From positions 1 to 28,858 of IMG/VR virus record IMGVR_UViG_3300046543_000037: a DNA stretch of 28,858 bases; one strand, given 5' to 3'. The notes beneath the pieces were generated by a model that saw nothing but the letters and a program-made list of their open reading frames with translations, searched no databases and had not been told where the DNA came from. Both the position numbers and the translations under genes were made by a program. The DNA comes from a virus. This document shows positions 9,430 through 26,947 of the stretch, piece by piece; positions within the stretch are counted from its first letter, which is position 1; the number at the start of each line of letters is the position of its first letter.

Positions 9430-9543
9430 ATGAGCGGATCAGGCCCATTTTGGCTATTTATGGCCGCAGTTGCCTTCGCCCTTGGATGGTTTTTCCTTGG
9501 CGGCTACTTGGCCGGGAAGTCTAGTAATTCCCCACCGCAATGA
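9430..9543 (+). CDS. Antisense single-TM miniprotein (37 aa)
   Basis: This is the only convincing plus-strand gene in the window. ATG at 9430 follows a strong GGAGGG ribosome site (9421-9426), and the frame ends with TGA at 9541-9543. The product starts MSGSGPFWLFMAAVAF and is one hydrophobic segment rich in Phe, Trp, Gly and Ala (about residues 6-28), with a short polar tail (AGKSSNSPPQ). It overlaps the last 23 bp of the convergent 235-aa gene and begins 13 bases beyond the minus-strand -35 box. No good plus-strand promoter is visible; TTCAGA/TATACC near 9366-9396 is only a weak candidate. A role at the host membrane, as a moron-type gene, is speculative. It could also be a chance frame, though ribosome site plus membrane helix makes that less likely. 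Confidence 0.5.
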   Translation: MSGSGPFWLFMAAVAFALGWFFLGGYLAGKSSNSPPQ

Positions 9544-10228
9544 AGGTGGTGGCATCAGGGGGTGGGGGTGGAGGTGGGGCTGGTTGGAATGCAGTTATCA
9601 TCGCCACCCAAGGACGAACATTAAGAATACCCGGATTGTAGCCAATTGCGGTTGTTGTTGCCCTCACAAGATTTCCACCAGCGATAGCGTTGGCGTTACC
9701 AACAGTAACAAGTAAGGCTGGGGGAGCGGCATAGGGACCATCCGTAGCTTGGGTAAAGGAATCCCCGCCACCGGCAGCCCAAGCAAGGGCCGCTACCACT
9801 AACTCGCCAGTAGTAAGGAATGCGTTACTGGTTACGGACGGAAATGCACTATTACCAGTGGTCGTGTTTTCCGATGCGGAATCTCTTGGATTGGAGGTAG
9901 TTTGAATTCCGGTGGCATAAAGCGCTGACATTGATGCAAAGACGCCAGATGTAGCCTTGGTATAAGTAAGAGTACCACCACTTAAACCAACAGAATTGAA
10001 GGCAAAAAGAGTTTGCACTGATCCGTTAGTGGTGGAGTTATTTGGAAATGATGCGCCTATAACGCCATATCCATTATTGCCATCCGCGATGAACCCAAAA
10101 GAACCGCTAGTGGTTTTCTCAAAAACAAGCACAAAGATGAGCGATTTTGCTGGGATGGTCACGGTCAGGGACATACTAGCGCTTGCGGTATCGCTTACGG
10201 TCCCAAGATCAGTAACAACGATTGCCAT
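9521..10228 (-). CDS. Beta-rich virion-type protein, paralogue of the 237-aa protein at 21026 (235 aa)
   Basis: The product is Thr/Ser/Gly-rich and beta-strand-like from end to end, with no membrane segment or enzyme motif. It aligns over almost its full length with the protein encoded at 21026-21739. Both begin MAI-V-D-GT, share TKATSGVF and YATGI near the middle, then GELVV and a matching end (W--AIT-FQP against W--SIQGFKP). Unlike its paralogue, this copy ends with a Pro run (APPPPPPPDATTF) and a short extra tail. The start shares one base with the acetyltransferase stop (TAATG). The composition suggests an exposed structural or receptor-contacting protein, but I cannot name the family. 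Confidence 0.75.
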   Translation of the reverse strand: MAIVVTDLGTVSDTASASMSLTVTIPAKSLIFVLVFEKTTSGSFGFIADGNNGYGVIGASFPNNSTTNGSVQTLFAFNSVGLSGGTLTYTKATSGVFASMSALYATGIQTTSNPRDSASENTTTGNSAFPSVTSNAFLTTGELVVAALAWAAGGGDSFTQATDGPYAAPPALLVTVGNANAIAGGNLVRATTTAIGYNPGILNVRPWVAMITAFQPAPPPPPPPDATTFIAVGNY

Positions 10229-13038: not shown

Positions 13039-13260
13039 CTAGTAGAGAGCCATTTTGGCGCTAAAGCCGGAAGAAGTAGTCACCGTAATAAAGCCCTTGG
13101 TCTGACTTGATGTAAAGGTGATGGCCCCGACAGAGGATGGAGCCGTGGTGCTTACAGCCGTCGCCCCCGGAAAGACCCGGCCAATGGTTATGTTGAGGGC
13201 ATTCATGGCCGTTACGCCGTTTTGCAGCGCGGTCAGAAGATCAGAAAGCGAAGCCGACAT
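13039..13260 (-). CDS. Small conserved-type phage structural protein (73 aa)
   Basis: ATG at 13260 shares one base with the stop of the nozzle gene (TAATG). The product starts with a helix (LSDLLTALQNGVTAMNAL), then turns to beta strands rich in Ser/Thr/Val (ITFTSSQTKGFITVTTSSG). I recall small proteins beginning LSDLLT-NGV next to nozzle-type genes in short-tailed phages, but no function is known to me. A minor tail or cap component is a guess from position. Confidence 0.7.
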   Translation of the reverse strand: MSASLSDLLTALQNGVTAMNALNITIGRVFPGATAVSTTAPSSVGAITFTSSQTKGFITVTTSSGFSAKMALY

Positions 13261-15296
13261 TACCGTCTCCCATCCGGGGCGTAGCGATATCGAACGCGGC
13301 CAATACGCCAGAAGCTGTTTGCGTCCAAACCCTCTACCTTCATGGCCATGAACCTACCACGAATACGGGTATTGATGTATTCGGTCCCGGCCACGAATGG
13401 GAATGGCCCATAAATGCGAGGCGAGTCACCGGTATAATCGGTGGCAAAGAAGGTAATGGACAGGGCGGCGCTGGCACTGGCCCCGCCGTAGTCCATGAAG
13501 GTCATGTCTGGCAAAATCCAGTCCACGATAGCCATCTCGTTGCCTTCAGCGATGGTCCAGTAGCCACTCTGGAACGAGCTATCCATATTCACCGCGCCAG
13601 CATTGTAACCAACCTCATGCTGGTAAATCATTGCGGCCTGTATATCGCTTCCAATTGGATTACCGAGAACCGTAGCGTCAATCCAAGCGGAGCGGCCCAG
13701 AGAGCCGCAATCCCATTCACCTTCAATGATGTTGTACTTCACATAAAGGCTGTTCTCGGTGTTGCCGCCGGTCCCGGACTCCGGGAAGAACCAGACGATT
13801 TCATTGAACAGACTGTTTACGGCGCAACGAACCTTGCGAAGATTGGAGGTATCAATGCTCTGGAAGACGAAATTCCAGACCGGGCACGGCAATGGGGTAA
13901 CGCCATTGGCATTAAGCACAAAGAAGTTGTTCGGCCCCATCCAGTAAACATTACCGTTCAGATTTCCCATCGCATGCATGCCGACAAGGCCGCAGCCTGA
14001 ACCAACACGGCTAAAGCCAAATACCAGCGGCTGACCGATGAATTGCATCGTATAGCAGTCGATATCGGTCCAGAGAATGCCTTGCTGAGCGGTTTGAATG
14101 CCACCTTTAATGATTGATCCGGTTGGGAGTTGGAATGAACCGGCAGAATTCTGCGAAGTTGGTGTCCACTGGTTGAAATTAAGCGAGTCCGACCATTTGA
14201 CGAGAAGAGGGTTTTGGGTCCAGCCAAAACCATCCAGTGCCGGGGTTGATGCCCACGCCACAAGGATTTGCTGCGGTTGAGAGATGAAGATGCCGCCGTT
14301 TACAAGCGGAGCATTGGGGATAATACCGGCGTTTTGGAAACCGCCCTGTGGCGGCCAAGTAAAGATCGGTCCATTGAACGGACATGCAACGAGGATTTCT
14401 CCCCAGTTTGCCATCGTCCAATCCGTCGCCGTGATATCTGGAGCCGTGCCAACAGGAGCAGCCACACCAGTACCGTAGCCACCAAGCCCGTATCCACCAA
14501 GTCCATAACCCAAGAAGGACGGCGGCCCGATCTGGTAGTAATAAGTGATCCGGGCTTGGTTGTTGTTCATCGTCGCCGTTGCGTTGGCGCTGGACTGCAC
14601 CGTCGCTCCGATATTGAACGTAGTGGAATCAGTCAGTGAGGTGACGCTGTATGGACCAGAGATAGTCAGACCACCAACGGTGGTGGGGGCTAGAAAATTG
14701 GTAGCCGATCCAATCACCAGATTGTTGTTTGGTAGCGTGACGCCAACGCTACCGCTATTTGCGACGGTAGTAAGTATGGGCAGAATGCCACTGGATGTAG
14801 TTGTGGTGCTGGCGGCTACGCTGGACAGGATCGTATAGCTGCTGGAAGTCAGCGCCGAATTAACCGGATAGGTGCCGTTCAGAACAATGCCGCCGACATT
14901 GACCGGTGTTTGCAGAACGATAGTGGTGAAGACGGAAGCGCTGGTATTGGCATCAACTATGGTGACAAGATTACTGCCGGAACTAACGCTGAAAACAGCC
15001 CCATTGGTGGTGGCAGACTCGGGCGTAATGTCTGTGTTGGCTCCGGAAACCAGAACGCTGAGTGTCTGCGTGGCCCCGATGCCCAGATATTTGTTACCGC
15101 TGACGGCCTGCCATCCCCAAAGCTCTCTGATGGTAGAGCCGATGGAGACTGGGTAATAACTGGTCCAACCGCCGTACTTCTGGATCATGCCTTGTTGATA
15201 TCTGACAAGCTGGGACTGCGAGACTCCCGCCTCGTTCTGCGATGGCGTCATCATCGTATTGACGCCGGGCTTCAGGGTAACTGATGTCATTGCCAT
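13260..15296 (-). CDS. Tail nozzle / packaged-DNA stabilization protein, P22 gp10-like or T7 gp12-like role (678 aa)
   Basis: The protein opens with LKPGVNTMMTPSQNEAGVSQ, followed by LVRYQQGMIQKYGGW. This is a signature of large beta-rich nozzle or DNA-stabilization proteins of short-tailed phages. Most of it is beta-strand with Gly/Tyr repeats (GLGGYGLGGYGTG, about 265-280). It also has recurrent W-rich blades such as NGNVYWMGPNNFFVLN, consistent with a propeller. The C-terminus (FWRIGRVRYRYAPDGRR) is strand-like and basic. Such proteins close the tail and bind fibres. It follows the adaptor genes directly, as expected. A second ATG three codons in is an alternative start. The size and N-terminal motif support the call; the exact family is not verified. 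Confidence 0.78.
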   Translation of the reverse strand: MAMTSVTLKPGVNTMMTPSQNEAGVSQSQLVRYQQGMIQKYGGWTSYYPVSIGSTIRELWGWQAVSGNKYLGIGATQTLSVLVSGANTDITPESATTNGAVFSVSSGSNLVTIVDANTSASVFTTIVLQTPVNVGGIVLNGTYPVNSALTSSSYTILSSVAASTTTTSSGILPILTTVANSGSVGVTLPNNNLVIGSATNFLAPTTVGGLTISGPYSVTSLTDSTTFNIGATVQSSANATATMNNNQARITYYYQIGPPSFLGYGLGGYGLGGYGTGVAAPVGTAPDITATDWTMANWGEILVACPFNGPIFTWPPQGGFQNAGIIPNAPLVNGGIFISQPQQILVAWASTPALDGFGWTQNPLLVKWSDSLNFNQWTPTSQNSAGSFQLPTGSIIKGGIQTAQQGILWTDIDCYTMQFIGQPLVFGFSRVGSGCGLVGMHAMGNLNGNVYWMGPNNFFVLNANGVTPLPCPVWNFVFQSIDTSNLRKVRCAVNSLFNEIVWFFPESGTGGNTENSLYVKYNIIEGEWDCGSLGRSAWIDATVLGNPIGSDIQAAMIYQHEVGYNAGAVNMDSSFQSGYWTIAEGNEMAIVDWILPDMTFMDYGGASASAALSITFFATDYTGDSPRIYGPFPFVAGTEYINTRIRGRFMAMKVEGLDANSFWRIGRVRYRYAPDGRR

Positions 15297-15302
15297 CGTT
15301 GA

Positions 15303-16019
15303 TTACACCCGCTGTGGCGTAGCGATGGGGTTGGGTATCTGGGACTGCCAGCCCTGAGAACCATACTTCTTGCGCTGTTCCTCCATGCCTGCGGATGCAA
15401 ACAACAGGTCATACTGCTTGGACCAAGACACTGCCATCCCGGGGTCGTCAGCCTGAGAGCCGAAGTTACGCATGTAACCGGAGACGAAGACCATCGATGC
15501 GGCGATGAACAGATCAGGCAGGGTCTGCGTCAGGAACGTACTGGAATTACCCGAAGACAGGGGTGTTGGACGTTGGGTGCCGATCACCTCAACATTGTAT
15601 GCCTGATCTGGCACCGGTCCAAGAATGGCTCTTGTGGCGGTTGCCGGGGCAAAGTATTTCGGCACGCCGATAGAGGTGGCGTTGCTGGGATATACGATAT
15701 CTATGAATTCCTTGGATGCTACTGCCAGCGGCACCCGTACCGCATTGGAGGAAGTGGCACCCAGTGGGGTGAAGACATTGATCTGATCGATCACCAAGAA
15801 GGTGCCCTGAGCAGTCGGATAAGAAAATACGCGGGAATTGGCGGTGACATTGGTGCTTATGTCGGTGATGTAGGTCGCCAGAAAATCACCCTCGCGATAA
15901 ATGCGCTGCTCGGCGTAGTCGATCATGCCCGGGAGCATGGTCTGGAAATTAGCGTCATTGGATGAAATCACCGTCAGATTGGCGATCTGGCTGACATAGG
16001 TGGTGTAGTTGATGCTCAT
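15303..16019 (-). CDS. Head-tail adaptor protein, SU10-adaptor-like (238 aa)
   Basis: The key segment is MIDYAEQRIYREGDFLATYI (about residues 31-50), followed by FSYPTAQGTFLVIDQINVFTP. This helix-then-strand pattern is one I recall from adaptor proteins of short-tailed phages that sit under the portal. The C-terminal half has the helices expected to bind the portal (LPDLFIAASMVFVSGYMRNFG), then a long helix that includes WSKQYDLLFASAGMEEQRKKYG. Its start follows the stop of the 236-aa gene directly (TGAATG). It lies between a zinc-ribbon protein and the nozzle gene. Confidence 0.75.
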   Translation of the reverse strand: MSINYTTYVSQIANLTVISSNDANFQTMLPGMIDYAEQRIYREGDFLATYITDISTNVTANSRVFSYPTAQGTFLVIDQINVFTPLGATSSNAVRVPLAVASKEFIDIVYPSNATSIGVPKYFAPATATRAILGPVPDQAYNVEVIGTQRPTPLSSGNSSTFLTQTLPDLFIAASMVFVSGYMRNFGSQADDPGMAVSWSKQYDLLFASAGMEEQRKKYGSQGWQSQIPNPIATPQRV

Positions 16020-16733: not shown

Positions 16734-17423
16734 TCACCTGAAGTAGAAGCTAAGACCGGGAGAAAACATCACGTTGACGTTTTCGACGTTTTGGGCCGCC
16801 GCATTGGTCCACGCCTCGTCGGCGTCAGCCTTGCGCTGAGCTTCCATCTGAGGTGCATAGATACGAGCCAGACGATAAGCCAAGCCAGTGACGAAAGCGT
16901 CCAGCCAAAGATACGGAACCTCAACGTTCTGTCCATTGACGTAATCCGCATCCTGTATTTGACGGACGCGGTAGTAATAGAGCGTATAAGGCCCGTTACC
17001 GTCCGGGGTTGGCCAAAGGGTGATGGTGGGTGAAATCAGCCGGTCAAACCAGAACACGGTCGGGAAGGCTTGTGTGGCCTTGTTCGGATAGGTCGCATAT
17101 TCGGAGCGGCTGATCGGATACATCGAGCGGTCGGTGGTCGGATTGCCGTACCGGATGAACACGTCCAAGATCATCACCGTCTCGGCTGGCACCGTGTAGG
17201 AGGGGGCACCTTGCAGAAGGGGAAGAGCCTGTTGGTCAACTGTCCATAAATTGGGTTGGAGATTGCTCATCTTGGCAAGAAGCAGGTTGGCTTCGATCCG
17301 GGCGTCATCCAGATGCGTCTGTAAAATCTCCGTCCTTCTTACGCCGATCCGGGAGAAGGCATTCAGGACCGACTCGCCAAGGCTTGGTGCAAAGTTATAG
17401 GTGCCGGAAGTGACTTGGGTCAT
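16734..17423 (-). CDS. Tail accessory / head-completion protein, P22 gp4-like (229 aa)
   Basis: The N-terminal half is helical (ESVLNAFSRIGVRR, then DDARIEANLLLAKMSNLQ). Next comes a strand pair (LPLLQGAPSYTVPAETVMIL) and TITLWPTPDGNGPYTLYYY. The C-terminus is a long helix (LDAFVTGLAYRLARIYAP, then QRKADADEAW). This helix/strand/helix layout is that of tail accessory or DNA-stabilization adaptors of P22-like phages. Its start overlaps the stop of the 93-aa gene (ATGA). It is the first of two adaptor-like genes in the cassette. Confidence 0.72.
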   Translation of the reverse strand: MTQVTSGTYNFAPSLGESVLNAFSRIGVRRTEILQTHLDDARIEANLLLAKMSNLQPNLWTVDQQALPLLQGAPSYTVPAETVMILDVFIRYGNPTTDRSMYPISRSEYATYPNKATQAFPTVFWFDRLISPTITLWPTPDGNGPYTLYYYRVRQIQDADYVNGQNVEVPYLWLDAFVTGLAYRLARIYAPQMEAQRKADADEAWTNAAAQNVENVNVMFSPGLSFYFR

Positions 17424-17701
17424 GGGGTTATAATCCTTAGATCACCTTGGGCCTGAGAGACGGTCGAGCCAGAAGCCGTGATATTCCAAGGGGCTGGCCC
17501 CAAATCTGACAAACAGGAGGACCAAGTGGCCGTAAAGAAGCTGTTCTGCTGCGTCATCGAGATGGAGGTGGACGCCGTGGTCAGCCCCAGCGGATAGGTG
17601 ATGTTCAGGAACGCGCCGCCCGGCACCGTCAGGTTTCCGTTGATGTCTAGGAACTCGGCAACGAACTGAGCGGTATTGCCTTGTTTGACGTTTGTGGTCA
17701 T
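17420..17701 (-). CDS. Small Ig-like / beta-sandwich structural protein (93 aa)
   Basis: The protein is beta-rich throughout: it begins MTTNVKQGNTAQFVAEFLD, and strands such as NSFFTATWSSCLSD and WNITASGSTVSQAQGDLRI alternate. The pattern of one compact sandwich is like small Ig-type domains attached to phage virions, though I do not recognise the exact family. There is a GGGACGG run just before the ATG. It lies 8 bp after the 1036-aa fibre-like gene and overlaps the next gene by ATGA. Confidence 0.7.
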   Translation of the reverse strand: MTTNVKQGNTAQFVAEFLDINGNLTVPGGAFLNITYPLGLTTASTSISMTQQNSFFTATWSSCLSDLGPAPWNITASGSTVSQAQGDLRIITP

Positions 17702-17709
17702 TGCCGTCC

Positions 17710-20700
17710 CTATGACACGATGATGGCCACCCTAGCCCTGACCGCCGCTACCGGGGTTCCGGTAGCCGGGATCGTCTGAGGCGTCACAATTGAGGCGAGT
17801 ATACTAGGTTCTGGCGCGTTTCCAATAACGGTCAGATTTCCCCGATATTTGGGGTCTTTTGTGATGATATCGACGTAAGCCCGGACAGGTGGGCTGAAGG
17901 CGTAGAGCACGGCAGACATAACGTCCCGGCGCTCATAGGCCGACATGGTGGCCAGATAGCTGAAGTTGATGGTGGCCGGGTTCCAAGCCTGATACTGGCC
18001 CTCCCAGACCTTGGGTTTGTTCCACCTCGGATTGGACAGGTTGCCGTACCAGCCATAGGACGGGATGATTGGAGGCGTGGAAGTGAATATGAACGGCTGG
18101 AAGAACGGGTTACGGCGCTTGGGCGGCGTCGGCTCCCGCCATGGGGCATACCATGCAAAAGAGGGGGTTATCGGGAATGGCGGCTGGACCTGAGTTGACG
18201 GAGATGCTGTTCGTACCCTGCGGGTCGGGTCAGCCAGCGGGCTGAACCAATCCATCCGGACAACGACCGCAATGAACGGATATCTGACACCAAGGCCGGG
18301 GCTTCTTGGCCCTCTCGGTATTTGGTCGGGATAATAGCTGGCTACATAGTTGACTGGGGCGGGTATTGGGAACGGCCCAAAGCTGAAATACGGCTCCAGC
18401 GCCGTCCTTATGCCAATGCGTCGGGTCGGGTCGGTATAGCTGGCAAACCAACTGAATGGCGCGACCGGAAGCGGAGCAAAGCTAAAGGAGGGTTGCAGCG
18501 CAACTCTAGGCCCTTTTGGCAATGTCGGTTCAGACAAACGACTAAACCAACTCATCCGCGCTGAGCTTGCTACGAATTGATATCTAATGCGGCTGGCAGC
18601 GCCAATATCTGGCTTAAGGCGCGTAGGGTCTGAAAGATTTTCGTACCAGCCGAAAGTGACGACTACCGGCTCTACAAACAGCGACCAAGACTGCTGTTCA
18701 TATCTGGTAGCTGTGGCCGTCCTGCGTATTAAATCAGGCCAAGGCGTCAACCAAGAATAAGTGACATTATCCGGGAATAGTGCCCAAGATGGCTGCTCAT
18801 AGCGCGTAGCCGTAGCGATACGCCTGACCGGCTCAGCAAACGACTTAAACCACTTATCTACAGTGCTGACTTCGCCGGGGAGGGACCAAGAGGGTTGCTC
18901 ATACCGAGTAGGTGGCACCCTTCGGATAAGATCGAGCCACGGCGTAATCCAGCCATACGTCACATTGTCCGGGAATAATGACCAAGAAGGCTGTTCGTGG
19001 CGAGTGGCTGTAGCTACACGTCTGGATGGATCAGACAGATTTCCAAACCATCCAAACGAAACAATCGGGTCGGTATCGATTATGATTTGTTCATAGCGGG
19101 TAGGCGTAGCGATACGACGAACCGGATCACGGAACTGAGCAAACCATTTGTCTGCGGTTATTATTTCGCCGGATGGAGCAACAAAGAACTGATAGGACTG
19201 TCCAGCAACAGATGACTTGGGTCTTGATGGATCGGAAAGATTGCCGAACCAACCAAAAGAGACAACAGGGTCGGTGTCTATCGATAGCTGCTCTGATCGA
19301 GTGGCTGTAGCAACGCGCCTGACTGGATCATTGAACTGCTTGTACCATTTGTCGGCAGTAGTGACTTCACCAGATGGTGCGACAAAGAACTGGAAGGTCT
19401 GGTTGGCCGCAGCAAGCGTCTTTGGACGCACCGGTTCATTGAGCGGCTCATACCAACCGATATGAGGGACGACAGCAATGAAGGGATAACGAACCTTGCC
19501 GGGAGCGCCGATATCAGGCTTTACCCGGACTGGTTCAGATAATGGTCTGAGCCAACTATCAGGGAATATAGGTGTAGGCGGCGGTACCACTGGACCGATA
19601 AATCCAGAAGCAATCAGTGCAACCGTGATGCCTTTTCTTCTGACTGGATCAGAATACGGCTGATGCCAGCGGCTTTCTGTTACCTGCTCCTTCTGGGTAA
19701 GACCGAACGGTTCGGCAAAGAAGTCTTTCTGTCTCTCTGCGCGTTGACCGGGTTTGATACGGACTGGCTCGGAAAGAGCTTCGTACCAAGGGATGAATGG
19801 AGCCAGAGCGATAAATGGATATCGGACCTTAAGACCAACAATGTTCTTTGGTGGAAGAATACGATCAAGTTGCTGGAAGCCAAAGAATGTTGCGGGAGGA
19901 AAGTCCGTGATGATAATCAGGCCATCGCCGCCAATTCCTTTGGCGCTAGTGCCAACGGTGCCACGGATTGAGCCGACGCCGCCGCCACCACCACCAAAAC
20001 TTCCTCCACTGCCACCTTTATTGGCCGCGACTACGTTACCTGAGTTTGATCCAGAGGCACCACCACCACCACCAAGCCCGTGAGTACCATCAAAGTCTGT
20101 GCCGCTGCCGCCATTGCCGCCTGTGGTGGCCACTGCTGTAGATACAGTATTACTGCCGCCACCACCCGAATTACCCGTGCCATTGCCGCCGGGATTACCG
20201 GCGCTACCACCTGTACCAGAACTACCAGTACCGCCAGCTTGGCCCGGTGCATTACCGGTAGTGCCATTATTAGCGCCGCCGCCGCCACCACCGAATGTAG
20301 AAGTTGCTGTAAAGCCGTTACCACCCGCTCCATTGGGGCCACCGGCACCACCGCCGCCGCCACCACCGCCAACGGCACCGGATTGGGCGTTCCCACCATT
20401 ACCACCAGCGGAGCCAATCGGATTGGTGTAGGTTATGGCAGGGGTGCCGAACTGACCAAGGGTGGATGCCCCACCCGTAGCACCGCTAAAGCTAGTCGTA
20501 TCGGCACCATTATGAACAGCATAGCTGTTGGTAATGGTGGTGCCTTCCCAGAACGTGGTGGGATCACTGCCGGTCCCGGGGCCGCCGATAGCAAATGGTA
20601 TCGTCGTTGTGCCGGGAGTAATTGTGCCTGACGAATAGAGAAGTTTTATATACGCGCCGCCGCCACCACCGCCGACGCCCCTACTACTGGTGCCCTGCAC

Positions 20701-20820
20701 TGCTGGGATGCCAGTATTGCCCCCGTTACCAACCATCTCGACGGTATGGCCAGCAACAGTGAAATTAGCCGGGACAGCCCACGGTGAGGAGGTTGCCTTG
20801 AGAAGGAAGACTTGCGTCAT
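17710..20820 (-). CDS. Large putative fibre: Gly-rich N-terminal region plus Trp/Pro/Arg repeats (1036 aa)
   Basis: Three parts can be seen. Residues 1-45 are a strand-rich start (VFLLKATSSPWAVPANFTVA). Residues about 45-300 are a glycine-rich domain with runs of 6 to 8 Gly, of the type found in phage tail fibres, ending with an IITDFPP strand. Residues 345-935 hold about 18 degenerate repeats of the form W-[FY]-x2-[LF]-[SN]-[DE]-P-x-R-x-[KV]. They are separated by 20-45 residues of hydrophobic strand such as VRYPFIAVVP or YQFFVAPSGE. The last 100 residues (YERRDVMSAVLYAF and after) are a separate domain. There is no enzyme motif or signal peptide. It may be a fibre, head fibre or spike. The start overlaps the upstream stop (ATGA). 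Confidence 0.72.
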   Translation of the reverse strand: MTQVFLLKATSSPWAVPANFTVAGHTVEMVGNGGNTGIPAVQGTSSRGVGGGGGGAYIKLLYSSGTITPGTTTIPFAIGGPGTGSDPTTFWEGTTITNSYAVHNGADTTSFSGATGGASTLGQFGTPAITYTNPIGSAGGNGGNAQSGAVGGGGGGGGAGGPNGAGGNGFTATSTFGGGGGGANNGTTGNAPGQAGGTGSSGTGGSAGNPGGNGTGNSGGGGSNTVSTAVATTGGNGGSGTDFDGTHGLGGGGGASGSNSGNVVAANKGGSGGSFGGGGGGVGSIRGTVGTSAKGIGGDGLIIITDFPPATFFGFQQLDRILPPKNIVGLKVRYPFIALAPFIPWYEALSEPVRIKPGQRAERQKDFFAEPFGLTQKEQVTESRWHQPYSDPVRRKGITVALIASGFIGPVVPPPTPIFPDSWLRPLSEPVRVKPDIGAPGKVRYPFIAVVPHIGWYEPLNEPVRPKTLAAANQTFQFFVAPSGEVTTADKWYKQFNDPVRRVATATRSEQLSIDTDPVVSFGWFGNLSDPSRPKSSVAGQSYQFFVAPSGEIITADKWFAQFRDPVRRIATPTRYEQIIIDTDPIVSFGWFGNLSDPSRRVATATRHEQPSWSLFPDNVTYGWITPWLDLIRRVPPTRYEQPSWSLPGEVSTVDKWFKSFAEPVRRIATATRYEQPSWALFPDNVTYSWLTPWPDLIRRTATATRYEQQSWSLFVEPVVVTFGWYENLSDPTRLKPDIGAASRIRYQFVASSARMSWFSRLSEPTLPKGPRVALQPSFSFAPLPVAPFSWFASYTDPTRRIGIRTALEPYFSFGPFPIPAPVNYVASYYPDQIPRGPRSPGLGVRYPFIAVVVRMDWFSPLADPTRRVRTASPSTQVQPPFPITPSFAWYAPWREPTPPKRRNPFFQPFIFTSTPPIIPSYGWYGNLSNPRWNKPKVWEGQYQAWNPATINFSYLATMSAYERRDVMSAVLYAFSPPVRAYVDIITKDPKYRGNLTVIGNAPEPSILASIVTPQTIPATGTPVAAVRARVAIIVS
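18016..19788. repeat. Region encoding about 18 degenerate W--LSDP-R repeats
   Basis: Examples in order of translation are WYEALSEPVRIK, WLRPLSEPVRVK, WYEPLNEPVRPK, WFGNLSDPSRPK, WFAQFRDPVRRI, WFKSFAEPVRRI, WYENLSDPTRLK, WFSPLADPTRRV and WYGNLSNPRWNK. Repeats are irregularly spaced. One unit (YVASYYPDQIPR) has lost the Trp. Two larger modules, 19008-19199 and 19202-19400, are nearly identical in protein but differ at many third codon positions. Confidence 0.9.
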
Positions 20821-21026
20821 TGTTGTGACGCCACATATTTCTGAACCCGGGATATCATCGGCTCGATATCATTCCAAGGAACAGGCTCTTGAACCCAAAG
20901 ATCAGGGACAATGAATAATTTTTCTCCCGGTCCTACATGATGGCCTAACAGCCATGGCTGGGTAACGACGACTCGCAGGCCGCCACCTCTATCAATAATC
21001 CCGGCCACTGCGCTTTTCTCTGACAT
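20817..21026 (-). CDS. Small hypothetical protein (69 aa)
   Basis: ATG at 21026 forms a TGATG junction with the stop of the 237-aa gene; a GTG at 21029 would add one residue. The product begins MSEKSAVAGIIDRGGGLRVV and has hydrophobic strands (VVVTQPWLLG, KLFIVPDLWVQEPVPW) and a short C-terminal helix (PMISRVQKYVASQQ). I do not recognise it. It sits between the 237-aa paralogue and the fibre gene and overlaps the latter's start (ATGA). This suggests it is co-produced with the fibre, perhaps as an assembly aid, which is speculation. Confidence 0.68.
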   Translation of the reverse strand: MSEKSAVAGIIDRGGGLRVVVTQPWLLGHHVGPGEKLFIVPDLWVQEPVPWNDIEPMISRVQKYVASQQ

Positions 21027-21739
21027 CACGCCACTGTTGCATACAGGTCTACGTCATCAGGGATGCCGGGGGGATCAGAACCCGGCTTGAAACCTTGAAT
21101 GCTTATAGCCCATGCCCTGCTGTTATTCAGGGTGGGTGCGAAGGTCGGAGCCACCGTGATCGGACGGATGATATATCCGCCACCGATACCAGCCGCCGCT
21201 CCGGTGTTTATAAGAGAGTCGAATGGGGTAATGTAGCCATTTGCAGTATCTTGAATGTAGGTATCACCAGCCCCAGCTACCCATGCCAAGAAACCAACGA
21301 CAAGCTCTCCACTGACGGATAATGGAGACACGCTTGTGATGGATGGTGTAGTGCTAGTGCCGGTAGTGCCGTTAGCGGCGTTGGAATCAAGAGGATCGGA
21401 TGTACGAAGTATTCCAGTCGCGTAGAATGCCGTCAGCGCGGTGAAAACACCGGATGTTGCCTTGGTATAGGTGATATTACCGTTATTAATGGCGGAAGCA
21501 TTGAAAGCATATTGGCTTACAAAGGTACCACCGGATGTGCCAGCGGAGGTGGTTGATACATCAGCGCCGAAATAACTGTTTGATGCAGTATCTGTAAAGT
21601 TGCCAAAGCTACCGTTTGTGTTCTTCTCAAACGCCGCAATGAATATAAGTGCCCCGGCAGGAATGGTAACACCGGTAATAGTAACCGTGGCTCCAGCCGT
21701 CCCAGAGGCTGTTCCGATATCTATGACGCGGATGGCCAT
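21026..21739 (-). CDS. Beta-rich virion-type protein, paralogue of the protein at 9521 (237 aa)
   Basis: This protein is Thr/Ser/Gly-rich and made of beta strands, without a membrane helix or enzyme motif. It starts MAIRVIDIGTASGTAGATV and shares TKATSGVF, YATGI, a GELVV strand and a W-x-I-x-FKP end with the protein encoded at 9521-10228, in the same order and at nearly the same length. It lacks the polyproline tail of that copy. It begins 6 bp after the stop of the zinc protein gene. Each copy lies shortly before a very large gene (fibre here, giant protein there). I cannot name the family. Confidence 0.75.
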   Translation of the reverse strand: MAIRVIDIGTASGTAGATVTITGVTIPAGALIFIAAFEKNTNGSFGNFTDTASNSYFGADVSTTSAGTSGGTFVSQYAFNASAINNGNITYTKATSGVFTALTAFYATGILRTSDPLDSNAANGTTGTSTTPSITSVSPLSVSGELVVGFLAWVAGAGDTYIQDTANGYITPFDSLINTGAAAGIGGGYIIRPITVAPTFAPTLNNSRAWAISIQGFKPGSDPPGIPDDVDLYATVA

Positions 21740-21745
21740 GTCGCC

Positions 21746-22000
21746 TCACATTTGGATGCGGCGACGGTACTCTTTTTCCGACCGCTCCAGCTTCTTCTCA
21801 AACGGGTCGCAGGAGCCTTTATCGACGCATTCAGGACAGATCATCTTCATGCAAAGCCTGCACATCCCACCAAGTTCGGTGGGATCGCACTTAGGCTTGA
21901 CCATAATGACCCGGTTGCAGTGGAAGCAGGTAAAGGAGTCGGCTTCCTGCCGGATGCCGCCCGGGTCGAAGGAAAAGGCGTAGCCGCCCGGGTTCCTCAT
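21746..22000 (-). CDS. Eight-Cys zinc-binding protein (84 aa)
   Basis: Cysteines at residues 25, 28, 38, 47, 50, 55, 58 and 64 form FTCFHC, GMCRLC and MICPEC pairs plus two singles. This fits two zinc sites in a treble-clef or double-ribbon arrangement. The C-terminus is a charged helix (DPFEKKLERSEKEYRRR). ATG at 22000 (MRNPGGYAFSFDPG) is chosen because it lies just after the stop of the 162-aa gene. A longer frame from 22114 would lie mostly inside that gene. An AGGAG lies 15 bases before the ATG, rather far. I recall similar zinc proteins in phage structural cassettes; the function is unknown. Confidence 0.72.
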   Translation of the reverse strand: MRNPGGYAFSFDPGGIRQEADSFTCFHCNRVIMVKPKCDPTELGGMCRLCMKMICPECVDKGSCDPFEKKLERSEKEYRRRIQM

Positions 22001-22007
22001 GCTTCTC

Positions 22008-22496
22008 TTATTGCTCCTGAAACAGGATCGTTCCAGTTGCCGTGCCGGTGTAGGCGGCTGAGCGACAACGAAGCTGGAAGCCAGTGGACGAAGTGGCGGG
22101 AGCCACCAGTTCACTGCCCGGAGCGGCTACCCATCGATAGGATGCACGTTGGTTGACACCAATGTAGAAGACGTTGGAACCGGTGGTGATGGTGCCGAAG
22201 GTCGAACTGTTGACGGTCGTCACCAACAGCGAGGCGGCGTCGGCGGAGTCGAGCGCGGTGGGGGTAAGGACGGTGGTGGTGGATGCAGCCGTGACGCGGC
22301 TGATATCCCACTCCACGAAGTTATCGGCAGGCGTTCCGTTGGTGCCGATCAGCACGTCATAAATCTTGGAGCGCTTGATGTTCGGCGCGGTACCGGAGCT
22401 TGTGATGCCGATCAGGGCACCGGTATAGGCCGCTGCGGTAGGCTGCTGGGTACCGCCGCCCGAGGTGGAACCGTTGGTGATTGCAAAGTTTGCCAT
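22008..22496 (-). CDS. Conserved-type phage structural protein (162 aa)
   Basis: The protein begins MANFAITNGSTSGGGTQQPT. Its core reads SKIYDVLIGTNGTPADNFVEW, then NQRASYRWVAAPGSELVAPA, and it ends in LFQEQ. The whole is beta-rich. I recall this pattern (a YD-GT-GTPADN strand, then an NQRA-RWVAAPG segment) from conserved phage head or neck proteins of unknown exact role. The ribosome site is weak, only a GGGG run about nine bases before the ATG, and the stop of the preceding NUMOD gene lies 3 bp upstream. Confidence 0.72.
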   Translation of the reverse strand: MANFAITNGSTSGGGTQQPTAAAYTGALIGITSSGTAPNIKRSKIYDVLIGTNGTPADNFVEWDISRVTAASTTTVLTPTALDSADAASLLVTTVNSSTFGTITTGSNVFYIGVNQRASYRWVAAPGSELVAPATSSTGFQLRCRSAAYTGTATGTILFQEQ

Positions 22497-22499
22497 GGT

Positions 22500-22841
22500 C
22501 TAAAAACCCCTGTTTTCCCGCTTCTGACGCGATTTAGCCACAATATCCGAACCTCCGGAATTATCAACTGACCAGACCAGATAGCTGAATCTTAGTCCGT
22601 TAATGTGCCCGGGATTGGTCTTGCGGCGGAGGGCTGAGCGAAGTTGGTCGCGGGTCAGATTGTTGGCCTTGGCGGCGTGGGAGACGCTTTCGTAAACGAT
22701 ACCTTTGCAGATGACCGGCTTGCCGCGTCTGGGACTGGCTTTGCGTTGACGCTTCTTCTTGGAGTGTTCCCGCTTGGCCCAGTAGACCGCGCGGGAAACA
22801 CTCATTTTTACCCGTGTCTCATTGCTATGTTTGAACGCCAC
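22500..22841 (-). CDS. NUMOD3/NUMOD1-type DNA-binding protein without nuclease domain (113 aa)
   Basis: The N-terminus contains KHSNETRVKMSVSRAVYWAK, closely like the NUMOD3 pattern (kHSeETk-KMS). The middle, GKPVICKGIVYESVSHAAKA, then NNLTRDQLRSALRRKTNPG, resembles NUMOD1/IENR1 with its helix-turn-helix, in which S-x-x-x-AA is the hallmark. These modules normally bind DNA in homing endonucleases next to a GIY-YIG or HNH catalytic domain. I see no GIY-YIG or HNH/His-Cys motif here; the basic stretch (SKKKRQRKASPRRGK) joins the two modules. It may be a degraded homing endonuclease or a repressor-like binder. It overlaps the preceding gene by 17 bp, which is unusual in this window. Confidence 0.68.
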   Translation of the reverse strand: MAFKHSNETRVKMSVSRAVYWAKREHSKKKRQRKASPRRGKPVICKGIVYESVSHAAKANNLTRDQLRSALRRKTNPGHINGLRFSYLVWSVDNSGGSDIVAKSRQKRENRGF

Positions 22842-23709
22842 CGAAGATGGACCTCATGTAGTCCATGTCCTCCAAGGCACCCTTCAGGAAGGGGACAGCG
22901 CCATTAAGCTGGGCCAGTTGCTGTTCGGCTTGTTGAATTCTTCCCTTAAGCTCCTGCTCCCGGACGTACAGCTTTCTGCCAAACGGCGTGGAGTCGGCAT
23001 ACCCGTATAGCGGCGGCGGTTGCGCCAGATCACTCTCATACGGGACATTGACGACAATCCCCCTCTTTGCGGCTTCCTGCATGAAATAGTGGCCGCCAGA
23101 GCGTTGCTGGATGTATTCGTCCTTGGACGCCATATCGATGCCAAACAGGGCTATTTCCTTGGCTCCAGCCTTGATGGCCATCGCCAGCATGTATGCAAAA
23201 CTGGAGGTGAAGAAGTATCTGCCAAACTCATTGAGAAGGTCTTGGATCGGCAACGGCGTGGCATTCGGGACCAGTCTTTGATCCTGCATGTAGATCGGGA
23301 AGGTCTGTTTCTTCAGCCACTCCACGTATGGCCTGCCGTAGCTCTCGCATTCCGGCCAGAGCAGGTTGCTGTGGATTTCAAACCAGACATCAACACGGGG
23401 TAATTGGTCCATATTACCGGGGGAACAGGCCCAAATTTGCCAATCCGGGTCATTAAATGGGGCCAACAGGCGAGATGACGGCGCGGTGCCGATAAGTGCA
23501 ATCTTCAGCGGTTTTGGTGCGGCTTCTGGCGACGGTTGCACGGTTGCGTGTAATATAGAGGGGGTGTTAGTCGATGCTTGCATCCCTGAGATTGGTGTAA
23601 AGTTGATTGGTTCATAAGCAGAAGACTTACCATTGGTTTTCTTCTTGAGGCCCTTGGCCTTGAGAATTTCGGTCCCGGTGGGTGTCAGCTTGGCGGTTTC
23701 CACTCTCAT
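22825..23709 (-). CDS. Rossmann-fold, DUF115/sialyltransferase-like protein (294 aa)
   Basis: After a disordered, basic N-terminus (1-65) comes LKIALIGTAPSSRLLAPF (68-85), a strand plus glycine loop. DWQIWACSPGN and RVDVWFEIHSNLLWPE follow. Further conserved-looking blocks are FFTSSFAYMLAMAIKAGAKE, then ALFGIDMASKDEYIQQR and GHYFMQEAAKRGIVVNVPYE. This order resembles the Rossmann-like phage proteins related to DUF115 and Cst-type glycosyltransferases. The C-terminus (about 245-290) is a coiled coil followed by SIFGGVQT. A nucleotide-sugar or virion role is inferred; no catalytic residue is assigned. The start overlaps the upstream stop by ATGA. Confidence 0.65.
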   Translation of the reverse strand: MRVETAKLTPTGTEILKAKGLKKKTNGKSSAYEPINFTPISGMQASTNTPSILHATVQPSPEAAPKPLKIALIGTAPSSRLLAPFNDPDWQIWACSPGNMDQLPRVDVWFEIHSNLLWPECESYGRPYVEWLKKQTFPIYMQDQRLVPNATPLPIQDLLNEFGRYFFTSSFAYMLAMAIKAGAKEIALFGIDMASKDEYIQQRSGGHYFMQEAAKRGIVVNVPYESDLAQPPPLYGYADSTPFGRKLYVREQELKGRIQQAEQQLAQLNGAVPFLKGALEDMDYMRSIFGGVQT

Positions 23710-24095
23710 ACTCCCGTTATCGTGGCGGATTGGAGCGTGATGCTCTGGCCACTTAATATCAGGACCGAGGGAATAAGGATATCGTATGCCGTAGAAACAC
23801 CAACAGTCAGGCCAGAAACCACCACAGTTCCGCCGGAATCTTCGATATCAGCAAGGGCCAATGGATTGGTGGGGGTGGTGGTGAACAGCGTCGGGGCCGT
23901 CTGAGGCATGCCTATGAAGGTCAAGATGCCACCGCTAACCGTGCCAGATGGCTTGGCAAGTGGGATCAGGCAGACCGTATCGGTTGAGGTGGTTGGTAGT
24001 AATCTCAGCATGCCAAAGCTGGAGCCAGCATCGATATTGGCCACCACATCAAGCAGCTGGGCATTGATAGTCGGGATGTTATAGTTGACAGACAT
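23706..24095 (-). CDS. Small beta-rich structural-type protein (129 aa)
   Basis: The product starts MSVNYNIPTINAQLLDVVAN and is beta-rich, with hydrophobic strands (GMLRLLPTTSTDTVCLIPL, GGTVVVSGLTVGVSTAYDIL) and no membrane helix or catalytic motif. It probably belongs to the capsid/neck group of small virion proteins, judged by position and composition. The stop overlaps the next start (ATGA) and the gene begins 8 bp after the 113-aa gene. I do not recognise the family. Confidence 0.7.
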   Translation of the reverse strand: MSVNYNIPTINAQLLDVVANIDAGSSFGMLRLLPTTSTDTVCLIPLAKPSGTVSGGILTFIGMPQTAPTLFTTTPTNPLALADIEDSGGTVVVSGLTVGVSTAYDILIPSVLILSGQSITLQSATITGV

Positions 24096-24103
24096 CCACC
24101 AAC

Positions 24104-24445
24104 TTACCCCCCTGAGATGAGGGTGGCTACCACGGTGCCGGTGCTGGTACCGGCTGTTACGTTAATCCGGATGCCATTAACCGGGAGGGTAAAGGAACCA
24201 AACACGTTCCCGGTCTGCGCCGAGGAAAACGATGATGCAAACCATACCGCACCTGTTGCCGTGATCGTTGACCCGGGGCCTATGTTGGTGAAGGTCTGCT
24301 CGATGCTGTAGGTGTTGCCAGTGCTGACGACGCCAATGCCAATGTTCATTGGAGCGGTCATGTTCATGTAATCAGGGACAAAGACATCAAAACCTGTCGT
24401 GGAGGACAGGCCAGTCACCGTGATTACCTTTGGCATCGAGGGCAT
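24104..24445 (-). CDS. Small beta-rich structural-type protein (113 aa)
   Basis: The protein begins MPSMPKVITVTGLSSTTGFD and is made of Thr/Ser/Gly-rich strands (IEQTFTNIGPGSTITATGAV, GSFTLPVNGIRINVTAG), ending ATLISGG. Such composition is typical of minor capsid-surface proteins. The start lies 6 bp after the stop of the 57-aa gene and has only a weak ribosome site (GAAGTGAG). No specific family is recognised. Confidence 0.7.
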   Translation of the reverse strand: MPSMPKVITVTGLSSTTGFDVFVPDYMNMTAPMNIGIGVVSTGNTYSIEQTFTNIGPGSTITATGAVWFASSFSSAQTGNVFGSFTLPVNGIRINVTAGTSTGTVVATLISGG

Positions 24446-24451
24446 GGCGTC

Positions 24452-24625
24452 TCACTTCTTGTGCATTTTGCCCAGAGTGAGAGCCAATCTGGCGCGTTGA
24501 CCGACTTTGCCGGAAGCGTGTTTCTTCAGTTCAGCGAATTCGTGGACAGGCTTCCCGGCAGCCTTGGCTTCCTTGGTGAAGCTACCGGGATGCTTGATGG
24601 CACCCTTGATCCAGTTCTTTGACAC
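24452..24625 (-). CDS. Basic miniprotein (57 aa), GTG start
   Basis: GTG at 24625 follows directly after the TAG stop of the 87-aa gene, and the frame ends with TGA at 24452-24454. The sequence starts MSKNWIKGAIKHPGSFTKEA and includes HEFAELKKHASGK and RARLALTLGKMHKK. It is Lys-rich and helical. I recall small phage proteins with the W-I-x-GAIK-HPG start and RARLA-TL-KM end as a recurrent family in capsid cassettes of alphaproteobacterial phages. The function is unknown; DNA or scaffold contact is possible because of the charge. The gene is easily missed because it is short and starts with GTG. Confidence 0.72.
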   Translation of the reverse strand: MSKNWIKGAIKHPGSFTKEAKAAGKPVHEFAELKKHASGKVGQRARLALTLGKMHKK

Positions 24626-24889
24626 CTAGGCGTCCCCGTTGGTCCTTACATACGCCGAAGAGAAGGGTGAGCCGCCAGTACGGCCACCACGGGCAAACTT
24701 GTCCATCCGCTTCTTGGACTTCTCGCCCATCACCTTGCCGCCACACTTGAAGGTGTCCTTTCTGGACTTGGCTTCCTTCATGACGTTCTCTTTGCCGCCG
24801 CTGTAATCGACGCCGCCACCCGCCGTCTCGGTGACACCGGTCTTGAAGCCAGCGGAACTATGTTTCCCGCCCTTGTGACGATTGGCCAT
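24626..24889 (-). CDS. Lys/Gly-rich small protein with ARGG motif (87 aa)
   Basis: The start ATG (24889) follows AAGGAA by seven bases, and this site lies right after the stop of the 112-aa gene. The protein begins MANRHKGGKHSSAGFKTG, has KCGGKVMGEKSKKRMDKF and then ARGGRTGGSPFSSAYV, and is very basic. I recall small phage proteins ending RTG--SPFSSA as a common type in such cassettes. There is no hydrophobic core, so it is likely disordered or DNA/protein binding. The ARGG element echoes motifs in larger proteins of this window. The stop codon abuts the GTG of the next gene. Confidence 0.75.
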   Translation of the reverse strand: MANRHKGGKHSSAGFKTGVTETAGGGVDYSGGKENVMKEAKSRKDTFKCGGKVMGEKSKKRMDKFARGGRTGGSPFSSAYVRTNGDA

Positions 24890-24903
24890 AATAACGTTCC
24901 TTA

Positions 24904-25242
24904 TTAACCGGTAACGGATTGCAGGCTCTTCAGCGTGATGCCGCTGCCGGAAATGGCATTGCTGGAAGAGAGGCGAAGGCCACCGAGCGGCGACAGCACG
25001 GTGTAGATGGTGTTGGCGTCCACGCCCGGAGAAGTCGAGACGACGATGGCTGAACTGAGGTTGGCCCAAGAGATGGTCGGCGCTGGCGTAAAGGTCGGGT
25101 CGTCCAGTGTGAACTGAACGAAGACACCAGCCCCCGAAGAGCCGTTCCCCGTGACCTGAAGTGTCGTGGTCTTCAGAACCGGGTTCAGGATAATCACTGG
25201 CGAGACGCCCAGTGAGGAAATGGTGGTGGATTGCGCGGCCAT
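24904..25242 (-). CDS. Small beta-rich capsid-cassette protein (112 aa)
   Basis: The product starts MAAQSTTISSLGVSPVIILN and is beta-rich (TLQVTGNGSSGAGVFVQFTL, DANTIYTVLSPLGGLRLSSS), ending LKSLQSVTG. A GAAGGA ribosome site precedes the ATG at good spacing. Position two genes after the capsid suggests a minor capsid or decoration component. I recall similar conserved hypothetical proteins in phages but no proven role. Confidence 0.72.
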   Translation of the reverse strand: MAAQSTTISSLGVSPVIILNPVLKTTTLQVTGNGSSGAGVFVQFTLDDPTFTPAPTISWANLSSAIVVSTSPGVDANTIYTVLSPLGGLRLSSSNAISGSGITLKSLQSVTG

Positions 25243-25258
25243 AAATCAGGTTCCTTCT

Positions 25259-25393
25259 TTAGGTATCGACTTGAACAATCCACTCGATGACGTTGGTAAT
25301 CTCCGCCGCCGCCGATGCGGCCCTGCTGATAAGCGGTTTGATGGCCCCGAAAGTCCCCAACCTTATCACGCCAGCGTTGAATACCAAGATCAT
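25259..25393 (-). CDS. Miniprotein directly after the capsid gene (44 aa)
   Basis: A strong AAGGAG ribosome site lies inside TAAGGAG at 25400-25406, where TAA is the capsid stop, six to seven bases before ATG 25393. The protein begins MILVFNAGVIRLGTFGAIKP and ends EITNVIEWIVQVDT. It is hydrophobic and mostly strand/helix, without a charged cluster or a clean membrane helix. The same frame extends upstream inside the capsid gene without this ribosome site, so the ATG here is preferred. The function is unknown. The excellent ribosome site and position suggest high expression with the capsid. Confidence 0.68.
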   Translation of the reverse strand: MILVFNAGVIRLGTFGAIKPLISRAASAAAEITNVIEWIVQVDT

Positions 25394-25403
25394 TAGCGGC
25401 TCC

Positions 25404-26318
25404 TTAAGAGAGCGGGAACGTCCCGTAGGTCGAGCGCCAGTCGTAGTAGCCGAAGCTGTAACGCTGGTATCCCTTGACCAACAGGTTGTCGGTGGTGAAT
25501 TCAACCTGCATGTCCATCTCGAATGGAATGCGGTTCATGTAGATCAGGCCGTCAACGTTGGTCATCATGAACCAAGCAAACGCACTGGTCAGGTAGTCGT
25601 TGATGACGTAGCTCTCCTTGAGAGAATCGTTCATGCCAAGGATGGCGTTCACGTCATTGGTGGCTGTACCGGGGCGAAGCTCGCTGCGGAACAGACGGAT
25701 CGCTACCGGCTCAAGCTGGGTCGGGATCACGATCTTCTTGCCACGGGCGTAAATCTTCAGCCCGGCATTGTCCTTCCACGTCGAGCGGATGGCAATCGCC
25801 GCGTTGAGCATGGAGGTTTCGTTGAGGTCCACGTCCACGGAGGGCCGGTTGGCAATCGTGGTGCCATCGATGGGATGGGCCGGGTCGTAAAGCGCCTTGC
25901 CGTCACCACCCACGTTGGCGTTGAACACGTTGCCGGTGTTCAGCACGTTGGCGGCGTAGATTTCTTCCGTCTGCTGGAACGAAGCCATAAGGCCATCGTT
26001 GGAAGGCCCAAACTCGGCCTTGTACAGATTGTCATCGATTGCCTTTCTGGTAATCGCATAACCAAGGCCGATTTCGTTGTGCTCTTGGTTATAGACAAAC
26101 CGCTCACCAGCCGAATTGTCGAAGGCGGTGACACCACCCTCCTGCTTAAGCTGGGCAAGACCGAGGTAGCGCATGGAAGCCCGTCGCTCCAGCGCCATCT
26201 TGGAGTCGGTGGTCTTGAAGATTTTCGGCCACTGACGTTCGATCTGGTCGTATTTGCCAGAAATGCCCCAAAGGCCCGGGAGCAACAGGTCACGAATTTG
26301 AGCGAGTGCGACGGGCAT
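25404..26318 (-). CDS. Major capsid protein (304 aa)
   Basis: The protein forms the head shell. It starts MPVALAQIRDLLLPGLWGIS. The middle has FGPSNDGLMASFQQTEEIYA and ALYDPAHPIDGTTIANRP. The C-terminal half has KKIVIPTQLEPVAIRLFRSE and a strand (YMNRIPFEMDMQVEFTTDNL) typical of HK97-fold P-domain/A-domain sequences, ending YDWRSTYGTFPLS. I base the call on the pattern of Mu gpT-like and related capsids, on length and on place between a capsid-associated protein and small structural genes. An AAGGAG ribosome site inside TAAGGAG (26326-26332, sharing the upstream stop) precedes the ATG. The exact capsid family is not verified. Confidence 0.85.
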   Translation of the reverse strand: MPVALAQIRDLLLPGLWGISGKYDQIERQWPKIFKTTDSKMALERRASMRYLGLAQLKQEGGVTAFDNSAGERFVYNQEHNEIGLGYAITRKAIDDNLYKAEFGPSNDGLMASFQQTEEIYAANVLNTGNVFNANVGGDGKALYDPAHPIDGTTIANRPSVDVDLNETSMLNAAIAIRSTWKDNAGLKIYARGKKIVIPTQLEPVAIRLFRSELRPGTATNDVNAILGMNDSLKESYVINDYLTSAFAWFMMTNVDGLIYMNRIPFEMDMQVEFTTDNLLVKGYQRYSFGYYDWRSTYGTFPLS

Positions 26319-26329
26319 TAGATTACTCC

Positions 26330-26947
26330 TTAGATGCCGGTGGTGTTGTTGCGGTCGAAGTTATTGGGAGCCACAACAACGATGTTACCGGCTGAGGTAT
26401 TGTCAGTACCGTTGACGCCGGGAGGTGCCCAGTTTGAATAAAGATCGTAGAGACGCCACGGCAGGGTAGCTGTGGTGGCGAAGGAGGTGGATGCCAGCGT
26501 CATGCCGGAAATGCCGGTCGTGGTGTTGGCGGCACCGAAGGTACCGGACGACACGCCAAAGTTCAGGTTGACCATGGAAGAGGTGACGGTGCCGGAAGTC
26601 GAGCACTGCACGATGTAGAGCATGTCCGGATCGGTGCAGACCCACGCCTGCGCGTCAGCGGTGCCTGAGGTGGTGGCAACCGAACCCGGGAAGAACGGGG
26701 ACCAAACCTTGCGGTTGACGGTCGGGCTGAAGAATTCGCAGCCAAAGAAGACACCACGGACCTGAGACAGGCCAGACGAAAGCACGGTGACGTAGGGACC
26801 AGTGGTGGAGGTCGCTACAACGTCGCCGGTACCGATGACGTTGGTGTCGCTTGATGCAATGGTAAGGGTATCGAAGCCCGCAGTCGGGGCACCGCCATCA
26901 AGGCGGCGGAACTGACGAAAACCGAAGGGGGCGAGGGTATTGGCCAT
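26330..26947 (-). CDS. Capsid-associated / decoration-type protein (205 aa)
   Basis: The protein begins MANTLAPFGFRQFRRLDGGA, a start I recall from structural proteins located immediately before the major capsid gene in many phages. Thr/Ser-rich beta strands follow (VVATSTTGPYVTVLSSG, GMTLASTSFATTATLPW) and it ends NFDRNNTTGI. It is likely a decoration or capsid-stabilizing protein, inferred from order and composition. The ATG follows AGGAG by six bases and is the first gene after the strong promoter at 27049-27077. It shares the TAA of its stop with the capsid ribosome site. Confidence 0.78.
   Translation of the reverse strand: MANTLAPFGFRQFRRLDGGAPTAGFDTLTIASSDTNVIGTGDVVATSTTGPYVTVLSSGLSQVRGVFFGCEFFSPTVNRKVWSPFFPGSVATTSGTADAQAWVCTDPDMLYIVQCSTSGTVTSSMVNLNFGVSSGTFGAANTTTGISGMTLASTSFATTATLPWRLYDLYSNWAPPGVNGTDNTSAGNIVVVAPNNFDRNNTTGI

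Follow-up and report, generated by a model that had tools for sequence, protein, structure and literature searches.

An open reading frame in the analysed stretch of viral DNA (the window, a viral record of 28,858 bases) encodes a protein in which a Gly-rich domain is followed by an array of 18 Trp-Pro-Arg (WPR) units, and more than 60 related WPR ORFs, with 1 to 21 units each, were found in uncultivated viral contigs. On sequence grounds, WPR is a repeat family that had not been described and is distributed among uncultivated phages. The array itself, its modularity, a tail common to neighbouring proteins, the occurrence of fused and split forms, the turnover in copy number and one fusion with the C-terminus of a hub protein at a loop were read directly from the sequence. 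With somewhat less than even confidence, the array may be a multivalent Trp docking strand by which receptor-binding modules are attached interchangeably to the tail or neck. Phage host range is set by receptor-binding proteins; for the exchange of unrelated adhesins between tails, a family with fused forms, split forms and a docking-like tail provides a testable joint. WPR could also serve as a sequence marker for receptor-binding genes within the mostly 'unknown' gene content of viral metagenomes.

The units of the window protein start at W345, 385, 423, 456, 492, 524, 559, 591, 624, 657, 690, 725, 758, 791, ~825 (Trp lost), 858, 890 and 924, and Gly accounts for 34% of residues 1-300. The original prediction of about 18 Trp-Pro-Arg repeats after a Gly-rich domain was therefore reproduced, including the one repeat without Trp (VNYVASYYPDQIPRGPR, near residue 825) and the irregular spacing, as the distance from Trp to Trp is 32 to 40 aa except for a 67-aa gap spanning the lost Trp. 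A unit HMM detected 17 to 18 units in this protein, and a strict motif (W[FYHLI]x2[LFYW]x[DE]Px[RLK]) occurred 13 times in the array compared to 0 in 2000 shuffles of the same region. Since Trp is present in 17 of the 18 units, several tryptophans are found on one chain, as in the SU10-type dock loop. The second half of the unit is also conserved, with Q-Q followed by aromatic and aliphatic residues, and the E and D of the C-terminal motif were invariant in 23 sequences. Comparison with the loci L002 and L003 suggests that residues 301-344 may represent a degenerate unit at the position where relatives place a gene boundary and the tail of the upstream protein.

Table. Positions in the window of the WPR gene, its parts and the neighbouring genes
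Feature	Position	Strand	Remarks
Whole ORF: Gly-rich domain, 18 WPR units, C-terminal domain	17710..20820	-	1036 aa
Gly-rich adhesin-like domain, residues 1-300	19921..20820	-	a gene of its own, located upstream, in L002 and further relatives; fused in L106, L127, L099
Junction, residues 301-344 (FFGFQQLDRILPPKNIVGLKVRYPFIALAPFIP)	19789..19920	-	putative degenerate unit
WPR array, residues 345-938	18007..19788	-	18 units, 32-40 aa each, one without Trp
Conserved C-terminal region, residues 946-1036	17713..17985	-	family motif LxATExxDxxxxxxYxxPVxAxVxIxE
93-aa protein, cluster c7	17420..17701	-	next gene downstream of WPR in many relatives
SU10-type adaptor 1	16734..17423	-	PF24175, E 3.7e-12
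SU10-type adaptor 2	15303..16019	-	PF24175, E 1.1e-14
Nozzle/stabilisation-type tail protein	13260..15296	-	phrog_3287, E 1.6e-60; phage homologues annotated 'stabilization protein'
Adhesin-like upstream neighbour	21026..21739	-	46% identity with window 9521-10228; also related to the tailed gene that immediately precedes WPR in L003
162-aa protein, cluster c0	22008..22496	-	co-occurs with WPR in 25 loci, some of which have another capsid type
Major capsid protein	25404..26318	-	phrog_371, E 2.1e-11; 66% identity to MW202675.1

The WPR repeat had no match in Pfam, PHROGs, NCBIfam or PDB sequences, in agreement with the earlier statement that no named domain was known for it. The family was also not found in 50,697 phage records, nor in any cultured phage, nor in plasmids queried with a WPR relative, and the unit HMM detected no WPR in the stretches fetched from the cultured or annotated relatives phiM5, HTVC023P, DSL-LC04, QDWS535 and MW202675.1. 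By comparison, scans of uncultivated contigs with the window protein and its relatives as queries, followed by an iterated unit HMM, identified 43 ORFs with 441 units in a first set and 35 matches, a few of them redundant or spurious, in a second set; the unit alignments A1 and A4 varied too much to be used in pattern scans. A search of 85k genomes for a host gave three matches, of which L053 is a genuine WPR locus on a contig assigned, perhaps by wrong binning, to a Patescibacteria MAG. The Thiobacillus and Proteobacteria MAG matches (L054/L055) were rejected, as they represent a membrane protein with WHQPWSEP by chance, and no WPR was found in 399 sampled genomes of one phylum.

The unit consensus, WFQPLSEPVRRKPGLAAALQQFFA plus approximately 11 variable residues, gives a unit length of about 33 residues. 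Over more than 430 units, W was found in all units covering the position, Pro8 in 98%, Arg in 89% and Gln in 83%. Many members begin with FQYQxKTEPV or ILYPxxxxPV, followed by a conserved first unit (TESRWHQPWSEPVR..IAxALIASG), and many end in LxATExxD...PVxAxVxIxE. This degree of conservation is difficult to reconcile with a non-structural or largely neutral repeat protein, such as a lysis or host-interaction factor, that expands by slippage and recombination. Such a protein would be in line with the low complexity, the lack of a fold and the recent tandem DNA duplications of two-unit blocks (~71% identity over 181 nt and ~73% over 147 nt), but the constraint on W, P and R, the terminal motifs shared by distant phages and the fixed place in a structural cluster make it very improbable. 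Among phages with adaptors that are 75-85% identical, the number of units varies from 4 to 20, a turnover compatible with either a flexible multivalent linker or a variable-length fibre shaft. A WPR subgroup (L096, L118, L123, L126, L129 and L131) has another C-terminus (..SPWxLSxR/Q), perhaps reflecting another attachment type.

The domain that precedes the array is exchangeable. In L002 the Gly-rich and WPR parts are encoded by two overlapping genes and in the window the same parts are fused, while in most relatives a Gly-rich or other adhesin-like domain (LamG and others) is a separate gene directly upstream of the WPR gene. Fusions of an adhesin-like domain to the array were found in the window, L099, L106 and L127 (Gly-rich) and in L122 and L132 (beta-type), with further direct fusions in L108, L111 and L138. 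The LamG/concanavalin-like lectin domain PF13385, identified in the upstream gene of L011 and, below cut-off, in L020, L053 and L016, is one such exchangeable tailed module beside WPR genes but is absent from the window protein. The window protein resembles Gly_rich_2 (PF21722) in its N-terminal domain layout; however, its Gly-rich part is joined to a WPR array and the protein did not reach this profile at E<=1, or its curated cut-off, whereas among the relatives L106 matched above the cut-off (E 1.8e-6) and L127 weakly. BLAST of the Gly-rich domain of the window against other Gly-rich genes returned only itself, a problem of composition.

Most upstream proteins, although unrelated in their bodies, end in a common C-terminal tail (..R..[IV]x[GA]Y), which was found in 18 of 27 adjacent genes compared to 10 of 562 others (Fisher 6e-21, for a regular expression picked after data inspection and loci that are partly non-independent); in later, held-out loci the preset pattern was present in 3 of 5. 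Near-identical tails end different bodies in L002 (YWEAQPRKIVAVSYG) and L003 (WWEPQPRKIVAVSYG), the latter from a phage whose capsid protein is 97% identical to that of the window. An origin of the tail from start/stop overlap or a Shine-Dalgarno sequence was ruled out, since its codons vary between loci and it also occurs in genes that are not adjacent. In several loci, the tail appears recognisable as a truncated WPR unit. The protein encoded at L147:8608-8925 ends in a clear WPR half-unit (AFTWLGMTPLSEPIRLNPEMVGY), and by-eye comparison places the L025 tail (FDWFKSFEIRPSRTIIRGY) beside the corresponding sequences of the fused L106 (VSWFSPLSTPVRVKTG) and L127 (ASWFMPFSEPVRQKRG). This homology was clear only in L147, L023, L003/L002, L016, L025 and L132; over all loci, the homology between tail and unit was weak (p ~0.005-0.014), and a general homology of tails to unit 1 was rejected on this weak signal.

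The order of genes is conserved as capsid, c9-c8-c5-c0, adhesin-like gene(s), WPR, c7, adaptor, c3, adaptor and nozzle, which in most cases places the WPR gene between the head genes and the pair of SU10-type adaptors. The reported location between capsid and neck genes thus holds for the window, with the capsid gene on one side and an SU10-type adaptor on the other. In Sinorhizobium phage phiM5, several capsid-to-nozzle gene products are annotated as detected in the particle proteome; based on synteny with this phage, a virion role of the WPR protein is therefore likely. In addition, c0 and WPR were both found in a second lineage with capsid family phrog_1357. The presence of c0 with WPR in loci of more than one capsid type, along with the position of the WPR gene downstream of the capsid gene and the suitability of multivalent short motifs for a repeating lattice, could indicate that the array coats the head, each unit binding one capsid subunit or c0 as a tape-like cement or head decoration. 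This is improbable, though, as close relatives differ between 4 and 20 units, the genes usually found beside WPR are adhesin-like and the array of G001, described below, is fused to a hub protein and not to a capsid protein. The c0 protein has no family match and could be a decoration or anchor protein. Also among the head genes, a conserved 294-aa gene of cluster c5 (window 22825-23709, motif KIALIGTAPSSR..LAPFNDPDWQIWACSPG) has an enzyme-like look and no PHROG match. The adhesin-like neighbour and its paralogue at 9521-10228, which ends in FIAVGNY, belong to an undescribed beta-type domain family that recurs in relatives as an exchangeable upstream module.

The link to the tail hub comes from one contig, G001 (L147), which represents a different phage type from the window. 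Its gp10/hub gene is split; the first part ends in TWVYDISTQLWHQRESWGTPWV (phrog_578 positions 69-326), and the remainder (phrog_578 from 331 onwards, with an fn3 insert) forms the C-terminus of a 956-aa protein with a Gly-rich domain and 10 WPR units. A second ORF encodes 2 WPR units and fn3, followed by another C-terminal hub copy. The hub is unbroken at the loop where G001 has the split in Rhodoferax phage P26218, DSL-LC05 and a Vibrio phage. Over L147:4419-13988, c0, adhesin-like and WPR genes lie between the split hub parts, and two ORFs carry C-terminal hub pieces.

In SU10, W839, W847 and W857 of the short-tail-fibre dock loop of nozzle gp17 have been shown to clamp three chains of the trimeric fibre (PMC9509320). 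The dock loop region lies between WNYEFDTWSFR and VTIVGSFLKGFYQVDVGALDYFYD, and the G001 split site seems to correspond to this loop by motif and register, a correspondence that is not statistically significant alone. The gp10 HMM did not match the SU10 nozzle significantly, and hhalign of the window nozzle family against SU10 gave only E 0.011, in the same register. The dock loop (PMC9509320) and WPR are alike in being Trp-rich segments tied to a tail hub, which in SU10 anchors receptor-binding fibres, and in G001 the WPR array is found at the corresponding loop, as judged by motif. By contrast, the dock loop consists of three Trp spaced 8-10 residues apart in one loop of the nozzle/hub protein, whereas WPR tryptophans are 32-40 residues apart in arrays of 3-21 units usually encoded by a separate gene, with no significant sequence similarity between the two. 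This is also the case in the window, where the nozzle has no triple-Trp loop at that place; an array within the hub protein was found only in G001. Similarly, the P22 gp10-type packaged-DNA stabilisation/head closure protein (phrog_578) has its C-terminal part fused to WPR arrays in G001, while in the window phage the nozzle-type protein (phrog_3287) is separate and lacks a Trp dock loop. A head fibre or neck spike had initially been proposed for the window protein. Its fibre-module-like character and its place in a structural gene cluster agree with this proposal, but relatives link the family to the tail hub or adaptor and to an adhesin-like cassette. In one phage, the array and the gp10/hub C-terminus are part of a single protein. 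A role at the tail, in docking or as a fibre, is considered more likely than a head fibre.

Taking into consideration the exchangeable modules and the hub fusion, the WPR array would serve as a docking strand, long and for the most part extended, in the virion of a short-tailed phage. Each unit would act as a hydrophobic clamp centred on Trp (W-[FYH]-x-P-[LW]-S-[DE]-P-x-R, then QQ), and adhesin-like, putatively receptor-binding modules would be connected by the array with the tail or neck. For the Gly-rich module of the window this connection would be covalent, while in most relatives a separate exchangeable protein, with a tail like a truncated WPR unit, would form the same joint non-covalently.

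Two AlphaFold2 jobs (alignment-based monomer runs with shallow alignments) did not yield a confident structure, with a pLDDT of 53.5 and pTM of 0.15 for five WPR units, a pLDDT of 49.6 and pTM of 0.20 for the last three units and the C-terminus, and no strands in either. Low pLDDT may be due to the poor alignments, and monomer runs are blind to an obligate trimer; lack of a predicted fold is nevertheless as expected for an extended strand. The hydrophobic strands said to separate the repeats were thus not recovered, and the suggested stacked beta-solenoid found no support, the runs arguing against its simple monomeric form but leaving room for a trimeric fold. Pfam IPU_b_solenoid matched the window protein with E 0.55 over 9 residues only.

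Alternatively, the array itself could be the trimeric shaft of a long repeat-based fibre or spike of variable length, with the Gly-rich or LamG domain as its receptor-binding end. The adhesin-like domain fused at one end, the conserved C-terminal domain at the other and the variable number of units, as in fibre shafts, are consistent with such an architecture. Furthermore, in the closest annotated genome, MW202675.1 (Caudoviricetes sp. ct7L0027), a tail fibre gene is located between the two adaptors; this fibre is like the window WPR protein in sitting in the adaptor region and unlike it in that no WPR units were found in the stretches read. A fibre shaft is still rather unlikely, since no beta structure was predicted, albeit by monomer runs, the array has 14% Pro and irregular unit lengths, and a shaft would not be expected to have its units recur, truncated, in the tails of adhesin-like proteins encoded separately.

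With regard to the docking strand, its joint could be a standard plug, although this is somewhat doubtful. Gene boundaries would fall inside a WPR unit, with adhesins ending in the first half (W..P..R..[IV]xGY-COOH) and arrays starting with the second half, so that adhesins could swap freely by fusion or docking across many uncultivated short-tailed phages. Among annotated relatives, MW202675.1 (L057:1-642) encodes an ATGxVG-repeat protein ending in WNGFWWQTYPVRVWNGSAWVQKPLRHW, another Trp..Pro-Val-Arg tail, and Pelagibacter phage HTVC023P (L061) encodes, at 21242-26938, four consecutive Gly-rich proteins with the near-identical C-terminus GGSG[IV]V[IV]IRYKFQ.
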